Assembly: GCA_017551505.1 (NCBI GenBank)
Contig: JAFZLL010000012.1
Span: forward strand, 1 to 37,721
Reading direction: 5' to 3'
Source: Eubacteriaceae bacterium
GTDB lineage: Bacteria; Bacillota; Clostridia; Eubacteriales; Anaerofustaceae
Length of the DNA stretch: 37,721 nt
This document shows, in pieces, positions 8,917 to 19,962 of the stretch. The notes below the pieces were generated by a model that did not search any database, was not told where the DNA came from, and saw nothing but the letters and a program-made list of their open reading frames with translations. Positions within the stretch are counted from its first letter, which is position 1. Each line of letters begins with the position of its first letter. Both the position numbers and the translations under genes were made by a program.

Positions 8917-8981
8917 TTTTTGTTATATAGACTGCTTGGCATATCGAAAAGTGTTCTCCGATTTTTGCGCCTTTAAAAGAG

Positions 8982-9033
8982 GCAGGTGAATAAATACAGA
9001 TTTACTCACCTACCCTGAAACAAAATGTCAAGG
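8982..9033. repeat. Hairpin-forming direct repeat, copy 1 (left of the ATPase gene)
   Basis: GCAGGTGAATAA...TTACTCACCTACC followed by TGTCAAG. The arms AGGTGAnTAA and TTAnTCACCT form a stem of about 10 bp with one internal mismatch. A close copy lies at 10526-10576, on the other side of the ATPase gene and in the same orientation. Confidence 0.6.
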
Positions 9034-9099: not shown

Positions 9100-10380
9100 T
9101 CAATTCTTTAAACATCCTATCGGGATAACAAAAACTCCGTCTTCCCGTTTATAGCCATATTGCGTTCCGGTAATGACAATTTTTAAATCAGGAAGTCTGA
9201 GCGGCACTTGTGTTTCTTTCTTGTTATACTCCTTAACTAATCGCTCTATTTCGTTCAGGTGTTCTGCGCCTTCATCCACTTCTGTTTGCCCAAGTTTTAT
9301 CTCTATTAACGCATACCTGCCGTCTTCCAAATGCAATACAGTATCTGCCTCAAGTCCCATTCTGTCATGGTAATAAGATATTCTACCGCCTTTAGCAGAT
9401 GAATAAATCTTTAAATCACGTATACACAAGCATTCAAAAAGAAATCCGAGTGTCTTATAGTCCCTTGAAAAGTATTCCGGTGAAACACCAAGCGCTGCAG
9501 CTGCAATTGACGGATCTACAAAATTGCGTTTTTTCGATGACCGGATTGAGGTTTTTGATCGTATGGAGGGGTTCCACGCCTCAATATCCTCAATCATCAT
9601 CAGTTTTTCGAATCCAGATATATAATCATAATATGTCTGTCTGGACATTTCACAGGTTGCCGTCACATCCGCCAGGATCGTTTTTGCTTCCGCCAAAGTG
9701 CACAGATTCCTGGAATAAGACCGCAGGATCGTGTTGGCCCAGACCGGATTACGTTTTACATTGTCGATCTTTGAGATATCTGTTTCACAGGTCTGTATAA
9801 ACAGGTCTTTGGCAACGGCAAGTTGTGCCCTCTCCGTTTTTCTGTTTAGACTGCCGGGCCAACCGCCTCTGCAGACCGCATATTTTATTCCGTCGATAGT
9901 CAGATCGGAGCGGCACCCATTAAAAGAACCCGGATCGTGAAAGAGCTCCATCAGTGACACTTCTCCGTTCGACTCCCCGCTTTCAAAAAGGCTCATAGGG
10001 TACATTTTCATACGGGATATTCTCAGCGTGCCGGTGTGAGGCGTATCAACGGTCACTGCACTGGATCCTGTCAGAATATACTGACCCACTTCACCGGTGT
10101 CATCCACATCTTTTCTGATCGCACCCCAGATCTTAGGCGCATCCTGCCATTCATCAAATAATATCGGCTTTTCGCCCTTGAGAAGATCTGATGGTTTTGT
10201 ATTCGCGATAAGCAGAAGATTTTCACGCTGATCTTCATCTTGAAACTCTACAAAGCTTTTGGAAAAATGCTTCCCTGTAGTTGTTTTTCCGCAGCCCTTT
10301 GGACCAAGGATCAAAGCAGCACCAAACGCTTCTATCTTCAGTGCAAGTTGCTCATCTGTGATCCTTCGTATATATTCCAT
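9100..10380 (-). CDS. AAA-family ATPase with C-terminal DUF4143 nuclease-like domain
   Basis: The 426-residue protein has Walker A G-P-K-G-C-G-K-T-T (26-34), Walker B PILFDEWQD (72-80) and sensor-like ILTGSSA. The C-terminal DUF4143 region has a PD-(D/E)xK-like pattern, EADTVLHLEDG...LIEIK. The family is abundant in gut Clostridia and Bacteroidetes and is poorly characterised. ATG 10380 is preceded by AGGTG; an upstream GTG (10389) is possible. It is AT-richer than the host block. It has a repeat-covered promoter and is flanked by direct repeats, which suggests a mobile or regulated module. Confidence 0.82.
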   Translation of the reverse strand: MEYIRRITDEQLALKIEAFGAALILGPKGCGKTTTGKHFSKSFVEFQDEDQRENLLLIANTKPSDLLKGEKPILFDEWQDAPKIWGAIRKDVDDTGEVGQYILTGSSAVTVDTPHTGTLRISRMKMYPMSLFESGESNGEVSLMELFHDPGSFNGCRSDLTIDGIKYAVCRGGWPGSLNRKTERAQLAVAKDLFIQTCETDISKIDNVKRNPVWANTILRSYSRNLCTLAEAKTILADVTATCEMSRQTYYDYISGFEKLMMIEDIEAWNPSIRSKTSIRSSKKRNFVDPSIAAAALGVSPEYFSRDYKTLGFLFECLCIRDLKIYSSAKGGRISYYHDRMGLEADTVLHLEDGRYALIEIKLGQTEVDEGAEHLNEIERLVKEYNKKETQVPLRLPDLKIVITGTQYGYKREDGVFVIPIGCLKN

Positions 10381-10416
10381 TACAAACACCTGCTTTCTCT
10401 TGATCGTAATGGTTGC

Positions 10417-10445
10417 ATTATAGCACGCGTTTTACATATTTGCAA
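10417..10445 (-). promoter_or_regulatory. Promoter of the DUF4143 ATPase gene
   Basis: On the minus strand an extended -10 (TGC-TATAAT, hexamer at 10417-10422) lies 17 bp from TTGCAA (10440-10445). The -35 hexamer falls inside the first of the phased repeats, so whatever binds the repeats would affect RNA polymerase directly. Confidence 0.65.
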
Positions 10446-10513
10446 TCATTTGATTGACATATTTGCATGATTTCGCCTGACAGTATTGTTCCTTTTTATT
10501 TGACATATTTGCA
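10434..10513. repeat. Phased repeats, 23-bp spacing, upstream of the ATPase gene
   Basis: ACATATTTGCA occurs exactly at 10434-10444, 10457-10467 and 10503-10513, with spacings of 23 and 46 bp. A degenerate copy (GACAGTATTGTT, from 10479) sits in the missing 23-bp phase. On the gene's strand the unit reads TGCAAATATGT(C/A)A. This looks like an operator array. Confidence 0.7.
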
Positions 10514-10525
10514 ACCATATAAATA

Positions 10526-10576
10526 GCAGGTGAATAAGCATCGACTTACTCACCTGCCCAAGTGCCACTTGTCAAG
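10526..10576. repeat. Hairpin-forming direct repeat, copy 2 (right of the ATPase gene)
   Basis: GCAGGTGAATAAGC...CTTACTCACCTGCC followed by TGTCAAG matches copy 1 at 8982. At the inner end of the stem an A-T pair in copy 1 is a G-C pair here, so pairing is kept while sequence changes. The same single A/C mismatch is present in both copies. Confidence 0.6.
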
Positions 10577-10614: not shown

Positions 10615-10644
10615 TTGACTTTCATGCCTCTGAACGACTATGAT
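10615..10644 (+). promoter_or_regulatory. Sigma-A type promoter of the candidate ncRNA
   Basis: TTGACT (10615-10620), an 18-bp spacer and TATGAT (10639-10644). The predicted start is at about 10650-10652, exactly where the first long stem (GGTTGTAG) begins. Confidence 0.65.
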
Positions 10645-10649
10645 AGCGG

Positions 10650-10828
10650 CGGTTGTAGCCAAGAAGTCCGGGTACAGTGTGCTTATACCACTCAAGTTTT
10701 GGTTCGACTCCAAATGCCACTACAACCACTCTGATTAGTCATACGGATGCGGTATGATGAAAGCAGCGTAACCAGCGGCACTTTGGGACGGACAGCTAAT
10801 CCGGGGCCCAGAGTGTCGGCTGGTTTTT
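10650..10828 (+). ncRNA. Candidate structured non-coding RNA, about 180 nt
   Basis: The segment has a promoter at its 5' side and an intrinsic terminator at its 3' side, and no convincing reading frame. Visible pairing: an 8-bp closing stem GGTTGTAG/CTACAACC (10651-10658/10720-10727). Inside it are a hairpin with AGTG/CACT arms (10676-10692) and a perfect tRNA-like T-arm, TTTGG-TTCGACT-CCAAA (10698-10714). Next come TCATAC/GTATGA (10739-10744/10752-10757) and the terminator stem. The part resembles tRNA only in its T-arm. I cannot assign a class; an Rfam covariance search (for example raiA-motif, tmRNA-like, 6S) would decide. Confidence 0.55.
10773..10828 (+). terminator. Long terminator hairpin ending the candidate ncRNA
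   Basis: CAGCGGCACTTTGGG pairs imperfectly (one bulge, G-U pairs) with CCCAGAGTGTCGGCTG. An inner CGGA/TCCG helix caps the hairpin, and TTTTTATT follows. The T-tract abuts the next promoter's -35 box. Confidence 0.65.
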
Positions 10829-10829
10829 A

Positions 10830-10858
10830 TTGACATAATCCCATTGATATGGTATAAA
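10830..10858 (+). promoter_or_regulatory. Strong promoter of the orphan gene at 10891
   Basis: TTGACA (10830-10835), a 17-bp spacer and TATAAA (10853-10858): a perfect -35 and a 5/6 -10. The predicted start near 10865 leaves a leader of about 26 nt that contains a TACCG/CGGTA hairpin (about 10867-10881) and no clear ribosome-binding site. Confidence 0.75.
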
Positions 10859-10890
10859 TAAATCCTTACCGGAACACGGTAAAATCTATA

Positions 10891-11634
10891 ATGCGTCTCG
10901 AAAAGACGCGTGCCCGTTATGGCACAGGTGATTTTTTGAAACTGAATAAGCGCAAGTGCAACATCAGTATCGAACTGGTACCTTGCGGAGCTGACATGCT
11001 GAAGATTATCTGGTGTATTGGCGAGGATCGTCACACCTTCCGGGCAAGCTCCGTTATGGGGTATCAGTTTTCTGCATTTGTAGGGGCAATGTATCAACTC
11101 TATTCTGAAGGATCTGATACCCACAGTCACAACCGTGGAACAGGCCACAAAGCGAGTTTTACTTATCCGGGCGGAGATGCCTCTCTTCAAGAGGACGAAG
11201 TGAGATCAATAACCAGGATTAACTGGGATGGAGAAGGGCCTTACTACAAAATAACACTGGACAGGAAATGTAAGCATTGGAATTATCCTGTTAAAGATGG
11301 CGAGGATCCGATTGAAATCAGTATCAGCAGCACGCGCAACGACCCATACACTTGCACAGTAGACGGACGCGATCTATGCTATGCAGTGGCAAAGGCCTAC
11401 ACAGAAGTAATAAAGAAGTATGGTTTCTATGGTTACTATTCATCTACTGGAGGCAACTGTAACGGTTTTGGTGATGTGATAGATCTCCACATGCTCCTGT
11501 TTATAAAGGCCTATGCACTTAACGTAATGGAAGTCCGTAAGCTTGAAACCGTATGGAAAGCTAAGCGCGGTTGGGAACATGCAGAAGGTACCTCTTTTGA
11601 TAAAGAGATAGAGCTTCTGCTTTTCGACATGTAA
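10891..11634 (+). CDS. Orphan protein of unknown function in the accessory region
   Basis: I do not recognise this 247-residue protein. It has no signal peptide or membrane helix. It is rich in aromatic and charged residues and in strand-like alternation (ITRINWDGEGPYYKITLDRK, about 109-128). The C-terminal half looks helical (GRDLCYAVAKAYTEVIKKYG, about 169-188; VIDLHMLLFIKAYALNVMEV). The ATG at 10891 lacks a Shine-Dalgarno sequence; with a leader of about 26 nt it may be translated by another route, or an internal start may be used. It follows the ncRNA candidate with its own strong promoter, and the pair may be one small accessory module. An immunity-type protein would fit the style, but there is no direct evidence. 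Confidence 0.6.
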   Translation: MRLEKTRARYGTGDFLKLNKRKCNISIELVPCGADMLKIIWCIGEDRHTFRASSVMGYQFSAFVGAMYQLYSEGSDTHSHNRGTGHKASFTYPGGDASLQEDEVRSITRINWDGEGPYYKITLDRKCKHWNYPVKDGEDPIEISISSTRNDPYTCTVDGRDLCYAVAKAYTEVIKKYGFYGYYSSTGGNCNGFGDVIDLHMLLFIKAYALNVMEVRKLETVWKAKRGWEHAEGTSFDKEIELLLFDM

Positions 11635-15793: not shown

Positions 15794-15877
15794 CTGTCAT
15801 TCCTCCTTTTTTGAAAATCATGGTTTGCTCCTGCCTCCTGAACCCACGAAAACAGGAGATTTTGTCGGCAGGTAATA

Positions 15878-15914
15878 CCCAGTACTAAGTGTCGGTTCCC
15901 ATCACTTAACTGGG
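15878..15914. other. Candidate oriT hairpin upstream of the relaxase
   Basis: CCCAGTACTAAGTG (15878-15891) pairs with CACTTAACTGGG (15903-15914) apart from a 2-nt bulge. It lies about 85 bp upstream of the relaxase start, the usual oriT position in MobV systems. A second hairpin, CAAGGG/CCCTTG, follows at 15964-15983. The stretch 15794-16076 holds no believable gene. Confidence 0.45.
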
Positions 15915-16269: not shown

Positions 16270-16725
16270 TTACTCGTTATTCGGCTCAGATTCTACTTCG
16301 CTAATCATGTTATCAAAGATTGCCTCTTCGATAACCCTAACACATTCGTCAGGATTCTTTTGTATTTCTTCTCCCCAGAAATGAATAACTGTCCACCCAA
16401 GAGGCATGAGCTTTTGATCGTTCTCATGATCCCTTTGCATATTTCTTTCAATCTTGTTAATCCAAAAATCCGGGTTATTTCCTCTTTGAAGCCGTTGCTT
16501 CTTGTCTTCCCAGTCCTTACCATGCCAAAACTCACTATCGCAGAAAACAGCAACCTTCTGTCTGGTCAGGGCAATATCGGGAGATCCTGGGAGCTTCTTG
16601 TAATTCTTCCTGTATCTATACCCCTTGTGCCATAAAGCTTTTCTCAAAAGAACCTCAATACTTGTATCTTTTGAGCGATTGCCCCGCATACTTTTTCGTC
16701 TTTGTTCAGGAGTAAGGACGTCCAT
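16270..16725 (-). CDS. vsr: Very short patch repair endonuclease
   Basis: The 151-residue protein matches Vsr throughout: RRKSMRGNRSKDTSIEVLLR (about 9-28), GYRYRKNYKKLPGSPDIAL with catalytic Asp50, and VAVFCDSEFWHGKDW (about 58-72), which holds the metal-site His68. It nicks 5' to the T of T:G mismatches that arise when 5-methylcytosine deaminates. This protects the methylase's own target sites from C-to-T mutation. GGGAG precedes the ATG. It is the last gene of the cargo operon, 27 bp after the endonuclease gene. Confidence 0.93.
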   Translation of the reverse strand: MDVLTPEQRRKSMRGNRSKDTSIEVLLRKALWHKGYRYRKNYKKLPGSPDIALTRQKVAVFCDSEFWHGKDWEDKKQRLQRGNNPDFWINKIERNMQRDHENDQKLMPLGWTVIHFWGEEIQKNPDECVRVIEEAIFDNMISEVESEPNNE

Positions 16726-16752
16726 AACAATTACTCCCTTCGTTCCCTACAG

Positions 16753-17964
16753 TTAAAGCTGCGCAAGATCGTACTCTACCGGATCCCCTAATAGCAATCC
16801 GATATCCTCTGGCCGCATCTTAAATAGCATACCGTGATCTCTCCATCTGCCATCCTCTTTGAAATGTGCGGCCAGATCCAAAGTAATCTTCCCGTTGTCT
16901 AACAGGGGAGCCAAAAGCGACGCGTTCGGCTGCTTGGTATGAAGGACCTTATCGTACCGGAAAAACTCTCTGCCATTACGATCTTCGGAAACAGCTTTAA
17001 CCCAAAAGGTCTCATGGTGCTTTAGTAATAATGCACTTTTCAAGTTGGCCATCTGCCAAGAAGAAACATATTTCATGAGGCGCTGTTCCTGGGCATATTT
17101 CATTTCCAGCCTATCAGCAGCAGTGTTCACTTCCAATTCAAGTCCGTATGCGTTTACTCTCTGGGTAGTAAAGGTTTCATAAAGCTGAAGTCTGGCAAGT
17201 GTCGATCCGCGAGGAACTTGCCATTTACCATATGTTTCGACAATCTCCCTATAGGTTAATCCATCATCTGGCACTTTTGTAAACAGGGTAGAACGAGTTG
17301 TGGCTCGTTCAGCTCCGTGTCTTGTTAAGCGGGTAGTCTTTAATTCAATGCCCTTATAGTCAGGGGCTCTGGAATTATTCCGTTCAATTCCAAGGGCGTG
17401 TTCCAAAGTATCGCCAACACCGGGATCACCGGGGGTAATCGATGGAAGGAAACCACCATCGTGAATGATTTTGATCTTGTGTAGCAATTCAAGGGAAACC
17501 GATTGCTTGCTATACTTTATCTGCTGAAGCAGATCATAAACAAATCCATGTTGTAGCAACGAATTGCGTATCGTAGCATTTGACAAGTTCAACACATGGA
17601 TCTTGTTCTCAAAAACAAATAGGGAGAGCAGGTTCTTCGGATTGCAATACTGCCTGAGGTTCTTAAACCATATTCTCGGATCCCCTTTTTTCGTAACCGG
17701 CCTATAAAGGGAAGCTTCCGTCTCAATAAGGCCATCTGCGGTTACGAAGAATGACGGCCACATCTTTTTTGCCGCTGGTCCCTGTTCCTGAAGTTCGTAA
17801 TCATGGATCCCCTCATCCTTGAGCAGTTCCCTGACAGATCCTATCGCATCCATGATGGACTTATCATAACCAGTGGGAGTAGGGACCAGAAAAGCAACCG
17901 ATACCCCAACGTCGGCAAATACTGGAAGGAATTGATCTATGTTTATATCAGACATAGCTAACAT
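16753..17964 (-). CDS. MvaI/BcnI-family type II restriction endonuclease with extra N-terminal domain
   Basis: A 403-residue protein. Residues ~165-403 match the MvaI/BcnI family: GDPGVGDTLEHALGIERNN leading to the catalytic P-D202-Y-K-G-I-E207-L-K209, a PD-(D/E)xK site. The known enzymes are about 240 residues. Here an extra ~160-residue N-terminal part (ending SLYRPVTKKGDPRIWFKNL and NLSNATIRNSLL) may help target recognition or regulation. The ATG at 17964 is chosen because GGGAGGA lies 6 bp upstream. Prototype family members cut CCWGG or CCSGG; the exact target here is not determined. Confidence 0.8.
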   Translation of the reverse strand: MLAMSDINIDQFLPVFADVGVSVAFLVPTPTGYDKSIMDAIGSVRELLKDEGIHDYELQEQGPAAKKMWPSFFVTADGLIETEASLYRPVTKKGDPRIWFKNLRQYCNPKNLLSLFVFENKIHVLNLSNATIRNSLLQHGFVYDLLQQIKYSKQSVSLELLHKIKIIHDGGFLPSITPGDPGVGDTLEHALGIERNNSRAPDYKGIELKTTRLTRHGAERATTRSTLFTKVPDDGLTYREIVETYGKWQVPRGSTLARLQLYETFTTQRVNAYGLELEVNTAADRLEMKYAQEQRLMKYVSSWQMANLKSALLLKHHETFWVKAVSEDRNGREFFRYDKVLHTKQPNASLLAPLLDNGKITLDLAAHFKEDGRWRDHGMLFKMRPEDIGLLLGDPVEYDLAQL

Positions 17965-17982
17965 TGTCATTCCTCCCACATA

Positions 17983-19962
17983 TTATTTCAGATGTTTTAT
18001 GATTTCAGTCGCTATCGCTCTTGCCATGAGGGGCGGTACTGCGTTCCCCACCTGGGTAAACTGCGGTGTTTCAAGCTTCCTTCGATCACCGCCGGTAGTT
18101 CGCTTTCCTTGGAAAACAAAGGAATCATCAAAGCTCTGGATCCTTGCCATTTCCCTTACCGTCAGGGAACGGTTTGAGGCATAATGGACATAATCATCAG
18201 GCATTGTAGTGATGGTCATGGACTGGGTTTCGGGATCCAGGACAGTGTAGTTGCGTTTCTTTGTTTCAAGCAAGGGGTTTTCCGGATCGGCAGCTTGAGC
18301 TTCATGGTAACCACCATAACGCCTCATTAAAGCATAACGGGCCTGCACCTCTTCATTGTGCCTTGATGTTTCATGGTTTTGAAGCGTAGCATATTTGAAG
18401 CCATTTGGATCGACTTCCCCGATTGCATTGGCGGGGGTGTAAACTGGTTTCTGTTCTAATAGTTTCGGGAAACGTTTAGGATCCAAACGGCCCTTCTTGC
18501 TCCACTCGGAAAACGTTAAGCCGTCCTCTGACGGTTTTCCATCGACCTTTCTTTTGATGCTCCCAGCTTTCGTTTTAGCGAACCTCGTTGCAAAGGAGCT
18601 GTCATAATCATAAGGATGGTCACCTATTCCAATATAATCCAGATCTCCAATAGCCTCCGCTACTGTTACCTTTTCCTCTGGACCAACCGTAAACGGGATG
18701 TGGTCAATGACATCCTGATCATTTCTGCACCCCACAAAAATAACCCTTTGTCTGTTCTGAGGAACCCCATAGTTTGATGCTAAAAGTACTTGTTCCCCAG
18801 TCACACGGTACAAAGCCACTTGTTCTGATAGCGCGACAAAAGAATCGTAATCCGGGCAGCCCTTCATCAGAGAGAGAACTCTCTGCATAGTTTCAAAGGC
18901 TCCCTCCTGAAGGATCTCTAAAGCAAGCTTAGTCCTCTGCACAACTGCGACTGTCTTTTCATTGTTCGTGACTGAGCAAAGATAATCACACTGCTTCAGT
19001 GCGGTTTCAAAGATGCTTGAGATGTCAAGACTATCTGTTATACTGTCAAAGCTCTCCTTGTATGCACTTCTTTTAAGCTGGGCAGTGTTGATGTGATACT
19101 TGACCAGTCTGGCAATACGTTCCAAATCGTTCTGTGAAGCAATCAGCGAAAGTGCCTGACGTATTACATTCCGATCATCTTCAGCTACGACCTTATTGTT
19201 GCGGTAAGCTTCAACAAACGCACCGGACAGTTCATCACACAATGCTTTCAGAACCGGGTTGTCAATCTCGGTTTTGTTGTCCAGAATAGCCTTATTCATA
19301 AAAGCCTTCTGCTTATCGGTCAGAGGGAGTCCCTTTATTGCTTTCCTGCTTGCAAGATAATCGATCCGGCGTTGCCGTTCTGCTTCATTTTCAGCTATCC
19401 ATGCTTTCAGTACTCGAAGGGAAAGGGTAAGTTCATCAGACCTAATATCTGAGGCTTCGCATTTCTCTACGAATAGCTTCAAATGGTCATAGTCAACGAT
19501 ATTCCTGATTTCCTTCAGGATTCTCTCCTTGACTTTACCGTTATCTTTTGTGAGGATGCCGTAGACATTCTCCATTATGAAATACTTAGGACGGATTGCC
19601 TCTATCACCTTCAGGTAATAGGAAAACAAATCGTCCTTCTTGTCGTTTTTCCTGCGTTCACCAGCAAGTGAAAAAGACTGACAAGGAGGGCCGCCTGTCA
19701 GCACATCGATACTTTGATCCCCAAAGTTCATTTGGATTCGTTCTAACAATTCCTCTATGAAGTCCGGGTCAGTGATATCCTTTGTGAGAAACACCGTGTC
19801 GAGGCCAAGCTGCTCGTTGTACCTCATCCTGTGAGTCACTTCGCAGGTCGGGTTGATATCAGACCCAAGAAGGAAATCAAATGTCTTTCCGTTTTCCTCT
19901 ACTTGAAGAAAACCCTCGGAGAATCCTCCGGCTCCGGCAAACATATCAATAAAGGTTGCCAT
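17983..19962 (-). CDS. DNA (cytosine-5-)-methyltransferase with a large internal insertion
   Basis: The 659-residue enzyme has all key C5-methylase motifs: I FAGAGGFSEG (8-17), IV GGPPCQSFS with catalytic Cys94, VI ENV (131-133), VIII QNRQRV (402-407), IX RSLTVREMARIQSF (598-611) and X QVGNAVPP (637-644). Motifs VI and VIII are ~270 residues apart, against about 40 in M.HhaI, so ~230 extra, mostly helical residues are inserted. The target-recognition region lies at about 410-595. It methylates sites recognised by the endonuclease 18 bp downstream. AAAGGTGG precedes the ATG. Confidence 0.93.
   Translation of the reverse strand: MATFIDMFAGAGGFSEGFLQVEENGKTFDFLLGSDINPTCEVTHRMRYNEQLGLDTVFLTKDITDPDFIEELLERIQMNFGDQSIDVLTGGPPCQSFSLAGERRKNDKKDDLFSYYLKVIEAIRPKYFIMENVYGILTKDNGKVKERILKEIRNIVDYDHLKLFVEKCEASDIRSDELTLSLRVLKAWIAENEAERQRRIDYLASRKAIKGLPLTDKQKAFMNKAILDNKTEIDNPVLKALCDELSGAFVEAYRNNKVVAEDDRNVIRQALSLIASQNDLERIARLVKYHINTAQLKRSAYKESFDSITDSLDISSIFETALKQCDYLCSVTNNEKTVAVVQRTKLALEILQEGAFETMQRVLSLMKGCPDYDSFVALSEQVALYRVTGEQVLLASNYGVPQNRQRVIFVGCRNDQDVIDHIPFTVGPEEKVTVAEAIGDLDYIGIGDHPYDYDSSFATRFAKTKAGSIKRKVDGKPSEDGLTFSEWSKKGRLDPKRFPKLLEQKPVYTPANAIGEVDPNGFKYATLQNHETSRHNEEVQARYALMRRYGGYHEAQAADPENPLLETKKRNYTVLDPETQSMTITTMPDDYVHYASNRSLTVREMARIQSFDDSFVFQGKRTTGGDRRKLETPQFTQVGNAVPPLMARAIATEIIKHLK

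Follow-up and report, generated by a model that had tools for sequence, protein, structure and literature searches.

Mobile elements leave tRNA gene fragments behind (PMC9897764), and the locus described here resembles the bacterial tRNA genes, fragments and pseudogenes that lie near mobile DNA in having a T-arm, an anticodon-like loop and a D-arm-like segment at near-normal spacing, as well as a promoter, a terminator and a position in accessory DNA. It differs in its sub-cut-off score (17.6 bits) and in carrying 6-8 surplus bases ahead of the 3' acceptor strand; in addition, it is not a clean 3' tRNA fragment of the kind seen in attachment-site copies, and no parent tRNA was found. The yjdF riboswitch has a tRNA-like fold and has been proposed to be a homologue of tRNA-Lys (PMC9142559). 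It is likewise a non-tRNA RNA with T-loop and D-loop-like elements; however, yjdF controls the translation of its own mRNA, whereas the RNA here is terminated before the next gene and has no yjdF match in Rfam. tmRNA (RF00023) has in common with it a T-loop of the TTCGACT type and a tRNA-like end, but the tmRNA model has no match in the window (the whole 37,721-nt stretch analysed), and the genome has its own canonical tmRNA elsewhere (contig C23, tag ANNNYAFAA).

We propose, with a probability of about 0.42, that the locus, which lies in a gut-type Clostridia genome, is a solitary non-coding transcription unit of ~180 nt, the diverged tRNA-like 5' part of which is most likely the remnant of a tRNA gene. 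Transcription by RNA polymerase would begin at approximately position 10651 and end at a strong terminator. The first 77 nt would represent diverged tRNA-like sequence, probably left from a tRNA gene brought by mobile DNA, in which D-, anticodon- and T-like arms persist. Maturation or charging as a tRNA would not be expected, because the extra bases would ruin the acceptor end. In our working model, the tRNA-like relic would be transcribed but have no part in translation, and the terminator would shield the next gene, equipped with a promoter-like site of its own, from transcription of the unit. Transcription, tRNA descent and the absence of function are the parts of this proposal that we infer; the sequence features, the terminator, the sub-threshold tRNA score and the lack of relatives in the collections searched were observed.

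Layout of the transcription unit

The features of the unit are as follows.

10615-10644 (+): promoter-like site of sigma-70 type, TTGACT-N18-TATGAT, 10 of 12 matches
10651-10658 (+): 5' arm of the closing stem, GGTTGTAG, with the probable transcript start at ~10651
10656-10673 (+): D-arm-like segment, TAGCCAAG...GGT, as drawn by ARAGORN
10677-10693 (+): anticodon-arm-like GTGTG-CTTATAC-CACTC, "anticodon" UAU, 4 of 5 pairs
10698-10714 (+): T-arm, TTTGG-TTCGACT-CCAAA, 0.083 expected per shuffled window
10715-10727 (+): linker TGCCA and 3' arm of the closing stem, CTACAACC, too long for a tRNA by 6-8 nt
10738-10758 (+): hairpin GTCATAC/GGTATGAT
10770-10828 (+): long intrinsic terminator capped by an inner hairpin and followed by a T-tract, z -5.0

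The original prediction had described a promoter-like site, an 8-bp closing stem, a perfect 5-bp/7-nt T-arm with the loop TTCGACT, a TCATAC/GTATGA hairpin and a long capped terminator with a T-tract, all of which are present, although they depart from chance to very different degrees. The -35-like (10615-10620) and -10-like (10639-10644) elements are separated by an 18-nt spacer; promoter-match sites are not enriched in 4.1 kb of sequence (10 observed versus 7.1 +/- 2.8 in shuffles). The closing stem (10651-10658/10720-10727) consists of eight Watson-Crick pairs and encloses the T-arm, but perfect 8-bp stems enclosing 50-80 nt are common (30 in the window versus 14-29 in shuffles). The T-arm (TTCGANT loop with a perfect 5-bp stem) is rare in shuffles, and in combination with an 8-bp closing stem was never encountered in 60 shuffled windows. 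The terminator stem-loop (10770-10824, with the inner hairpin CGGA/TCCG and T residues on the 3' side) lies far outside chance, its folding z having been reached by 0 of 300 shuffles. The full unit has a folding z of -2.5, whereas the stability of the 5' domain alone does not exceed that of shuffles (z about 0.0; 0.01) and the 5' domain with the hairpin has a z of +0.7; the terminator therefore supplies all of the excess stability.

The claim that no reading frame explains the RNA broadly holds: the one frame of note (10640-10738, 32 aa) begins within the -10 box, lacks a recognisable ribosome-binding site and matches nothing in Pfam. At the sequence level, the short unit, the real terminator and the lack of a credible reading frame support a stand-alone RNA in an accessory region, as had been suggested, although not its further designation as a new class, given that the collections searched contain no relative and that the 5' domain is without excess stability.

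tRNA likeness and the search for relatives

ARAGORN predicts a tRNA-Ile(tat) cloverleaf at 10648-10723, with D-, anticodon- and T-arms that are near-normally spaced and an acceptor that is defective. The tRNA likeness is thus stronger than in the original prediction, according to which the sequence does not fold as a tRNA; this is true of the acceptor, which clearly fails, but the three arms can be drawn. The T-arm conforms to the tRNA pattern of a 5-bp T-stem with a TTCRANN loop, and GTTGTAGCCAAG, from the D-arm-like segment, is found also in phage tRNA-Gln and tRNA-Asn genes. The anticodon-like arm has U33 but also a U-U mismatch, and is not favoured by energy folding. A proper 7-bp acceptor stem directly after the T-stem is lacking (one T-C mismatch and two G-T pairs), and forcing an acceptor into the normal place gives -11.7 versus -17.0 with the perfect 8-bp stem, a cost of about 5 kcal/mol. 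The perfect stem requires 5-6 additional nucleotides between the T-arm and the 3' strand, which bears out the earlier remark on extra nucleotides before the 3' acceptor.

ARAGORN made no call in 60 shuffled windows, nor when the local sequence was shuffled 20,000 times. The Rfam tRNA model (RF00005) aligns end to end, but its score lies below the 29-bit gathering cut-off and corresponds to an E-value of 0.47 across the 1.56-Mb genome, which is about chance; the tRNA-model matches listed genome-wide comprise 41 tRNAs (44.7-72.1 bits), the present locus, and one partial match inside the tmRNA gene. In global alignment to 33 tRNAs of the same genome, with shuffles and other windows of real sequence as controls, the region scored 10.4, a value reached by 5 of 2,000 shuffles, yet at least seven other sampled 85-nt windows aligned equally well or better (up to 14.7). 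The likeness is therefore striking locally but unremarkable genome-wide. No tRNA gene was recognised as the parent; at best, local matching recovered the universal T-arm only.

An Rfam scan for a known class, as had been recommended, found no family at gathering score over the 37.7 kb (raiA motif, 6S and others included), and a permissive search gave only the sub-threshold tRNA match and chance matches; the yjdF riboswitch model was not listed at E-values up to 10. DNA comparison, also recommended, found no homologue in 101 related genomes, 50,697 phage records and 72,556 plasmid records, with only 22-31-nt chance pieces when relaxed to E-values up to 10, and a pattern search of viral contigs gave no match other than true phage tRNAs. 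Homologous VapE elements are without the RNA. A covariance model (R1) built on the single sequence 10651-10765 recovered the source sequence alone, under strict filters, in 67 genomes of the order, 391 of the class and 398 of the phylum (partly overlapping sets, about 790 genomes overall); on inspection, weak matches turned out to be either genuine tRNA-Gln genes or chance stretches. The best other R1 match (28.1 bits, E 0.004 per genome) was rejected: both strands of the stretch are open for proteins, Rfam gives no match to it, and chance would produce about one such score across 398 genomes. As no homologue was found, there is no compensatory change to be seen. Of the findings that were to count against the original prediction, the lack of homologues has thus been observed, and the sub-threshold tRNA match is such as a decayed tRNA would give.

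The proposed solitary unit with a tRNA-gene relic is favoured by the strong terminator, the promoter-like site, the absence of an Rfam family at gathering score, the end-to-end tRNA alignment at a sub-threshold score, the 0 of 20,000 shuffles called by ARAGORN, the 1,995 of 2,000 shuffles beaten in alignment to the genome's own tRNAs, the recovery of true tRNA-Gln genes by R1, the acceptor defect and the lack of homologues. Descent from a tRNA is nevertheless not proven by these results, because of the genome-wide E-value and the other windows that align to tRNAs equally well. Also counting against a relic, an intact promoter with a very strong terminator would be unusual in a dead gene. For the tRNA-like 5' half, a relic is more likely than a device, with chance resemblance as a close rival. 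The RNA is most likely an ordinary one-off rather than a new RNA class, and should not be filed as a tRNA, a tmRNA, a yjdF member or a new class.

Competing explanations

The explanation that comes nearest to the tRNA-gene remnant, and that we regard as a serious contender with the odds somewhat against it, is a plain lineage-specific small RNA or orphan terminator in which the T-arm and the 8-bp stem arose by chance, without tRNA kinship; any function would then be ordinary base-pairing regulation. Duplex prediction (which ignores accessibility) gave nothing convincing for pairing of the RNA with the translation starts of neighbouring genes. The shuffle-level stability of the 5' domain, the commonness of 8-bp stems, the genome-wide tRNA E-value and the equal alignment of other windows to tRNAs are all as chance would have it, and in a genome scan of many windows, features expected 0.01-0.1 times per window will appear; by contrast, a cloverleaf at a given location is rare, as the ARAGORN shuffles indicate. 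Either as a relic or as an orphan small RNA, the locus would have little significance beyond annotation, where it would exemplify how a sequence flanked by a promoter and a terminator can draw a tRNA-like call and yet not be a tRNA.

It is improbable, in our estimation, that accessory DNA here encodes a functional tRNA mimic, a stable RNA whose T-arm and cloverleaf body would serve, as a decoy or regulator, to bind a factor that handles tRNA (RNase P, a tRNA-modifying enzyme, or a defence nuclease that cuts tRNA). The unit has its own promoter-like site and a strong terminator, the cloverleaf body has an intact T-arm, and the adjoining element carries restriction-modification and Vsr genes; on the other hand, the collections searched contain no homologue, homologous mobile elements lack the RNA, and the 5' domain is no stabler than its shuffled counterparts. 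The RNA may act in trans as a tRNA mimic, for which the only positive evidence is its shape. Less probable again is a new tRNA-mimicking regulatory or decoy RNA with a cloverleaf body, its closing stem offset from the T-arm by the short linker, that is too rare or too fast-evolving for relatives to be present in the collections searched. If the RNA were a true functional mimic on mobile DNA, it would suggest that mobile elements are directly linked to the tRNA-handling enzymes of the host.

We consider it very unlikely that the RNA acts in cis on the downstream gene (10936-11634) as a leader or attenuator, operating as a riboswitch-like terminator-antiterminator switch. Alternative pairings can be drawn between 10710-10718 and the 5' arm of the terminator, and between CACTCTG (10727-10733) and CAGAGTG (10809-10815), and the former is, for a time during elongation of the transcript, the fold of lowest energy; however, 274 and 335 of 500 shuffles, respectively, reach such pairings. 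The downstream gene also has a promoter-like site of its own just past the terminator (TTGACA-N17-TATAAA, identified by eye and absent from the promoter scan list), and none of the 20 loci homologous to this gene carries the RNA. The absence from these loci and the shuffle-level antiterminator pairings together make a cis-regulatory role unlikely. That the RNA works as a tRNA-Ile(UAU), or is a second tmRNA, as the ARAGORN call might suggest, is already contradicted by the score of 17.6 bits versus 44.7-72.1 for the tRNAs of the genome, by the broken acceptor, and by the canonical tmRNA elsewhere.

Downstream gene and mobile element

The downstream gene lies on the + strand, and its most likely start is the TTG at 10936, behind AGGTG; the start residue is shared with homologues. 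The leader at 10848-10935 (+) has tandem hairpins (TTACCG/CGGTAA, GCGTCT/AGACGC and GTGCC/GGCAC; z -2.6) before this AGGTG ribosome-binding site. The encoded protein has no Pfam, NCBIfam, PHROG or PADLOC match; its 20 homologous loci are distributed across several phyla, mostly in gut and rumen MAGs, and the family has the conserved core D-x-CYA-V-AK. An AlphaFold model from a 19-sequence alignment (pLDDT 80.7) shows weak similarity to PUR/Whirly-like proteins (best Z 6.6) and to CdiI immunity proteins (best Z 5.8), values in a range that may reflect no more than a common arrangement, and Foldseek alone found no significant fold match. That the product may be an orphan immunity protein is a guess.

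Upstream, a DUF4143 ATPase gene (9100-10389) is divergently oriented on the opposite strand. The wider neighbourhood encodes VapE, a CHC2-type primase, a MobV-like relaxase, MvaI/BcnI restriction and modification, Vsr and a large serine recombinase; this gene set is an integrated mobilisable element, which adjoins, or may include, the RNA unit. The inverted repeat TTAAGTG...CACTTAG (15870-15905), upstream of the MobV-like relaxase gene (15793), is a candidate transfer origin. A transfer origin was also considered at AGTGTGCTTATAC, which is reminiscent of the pMV158 nick region, and was rejected: a longer version of the pMV158 sequence finds no match even when 3 mismatches are tolerated, and a separate repeat, TTAAGTG/CACTTAG, occupies the site ahead of the relaxase gene where an origin would be expected.

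The DUF4143 gene is flanked, in the manner of cassette ends, by similar hairpins GGCAGGTGAATAA...TTACTCACCT (8981-9011 and 10525-10558), of which the genome has no further good copy. Upstream of the same gene, three near-identical 14-mers, TTGACATATTTGCA (10431-10513), are operator-like; allowing up to 3 mismatches, the 14-mer has 7 matches in the window versus 2.4 expected. The restriction-modification cargo is compact (16270-19962), comprising Vsr, an MvaI/BcnI-type nuclease and a C-5 cytosine methylase.
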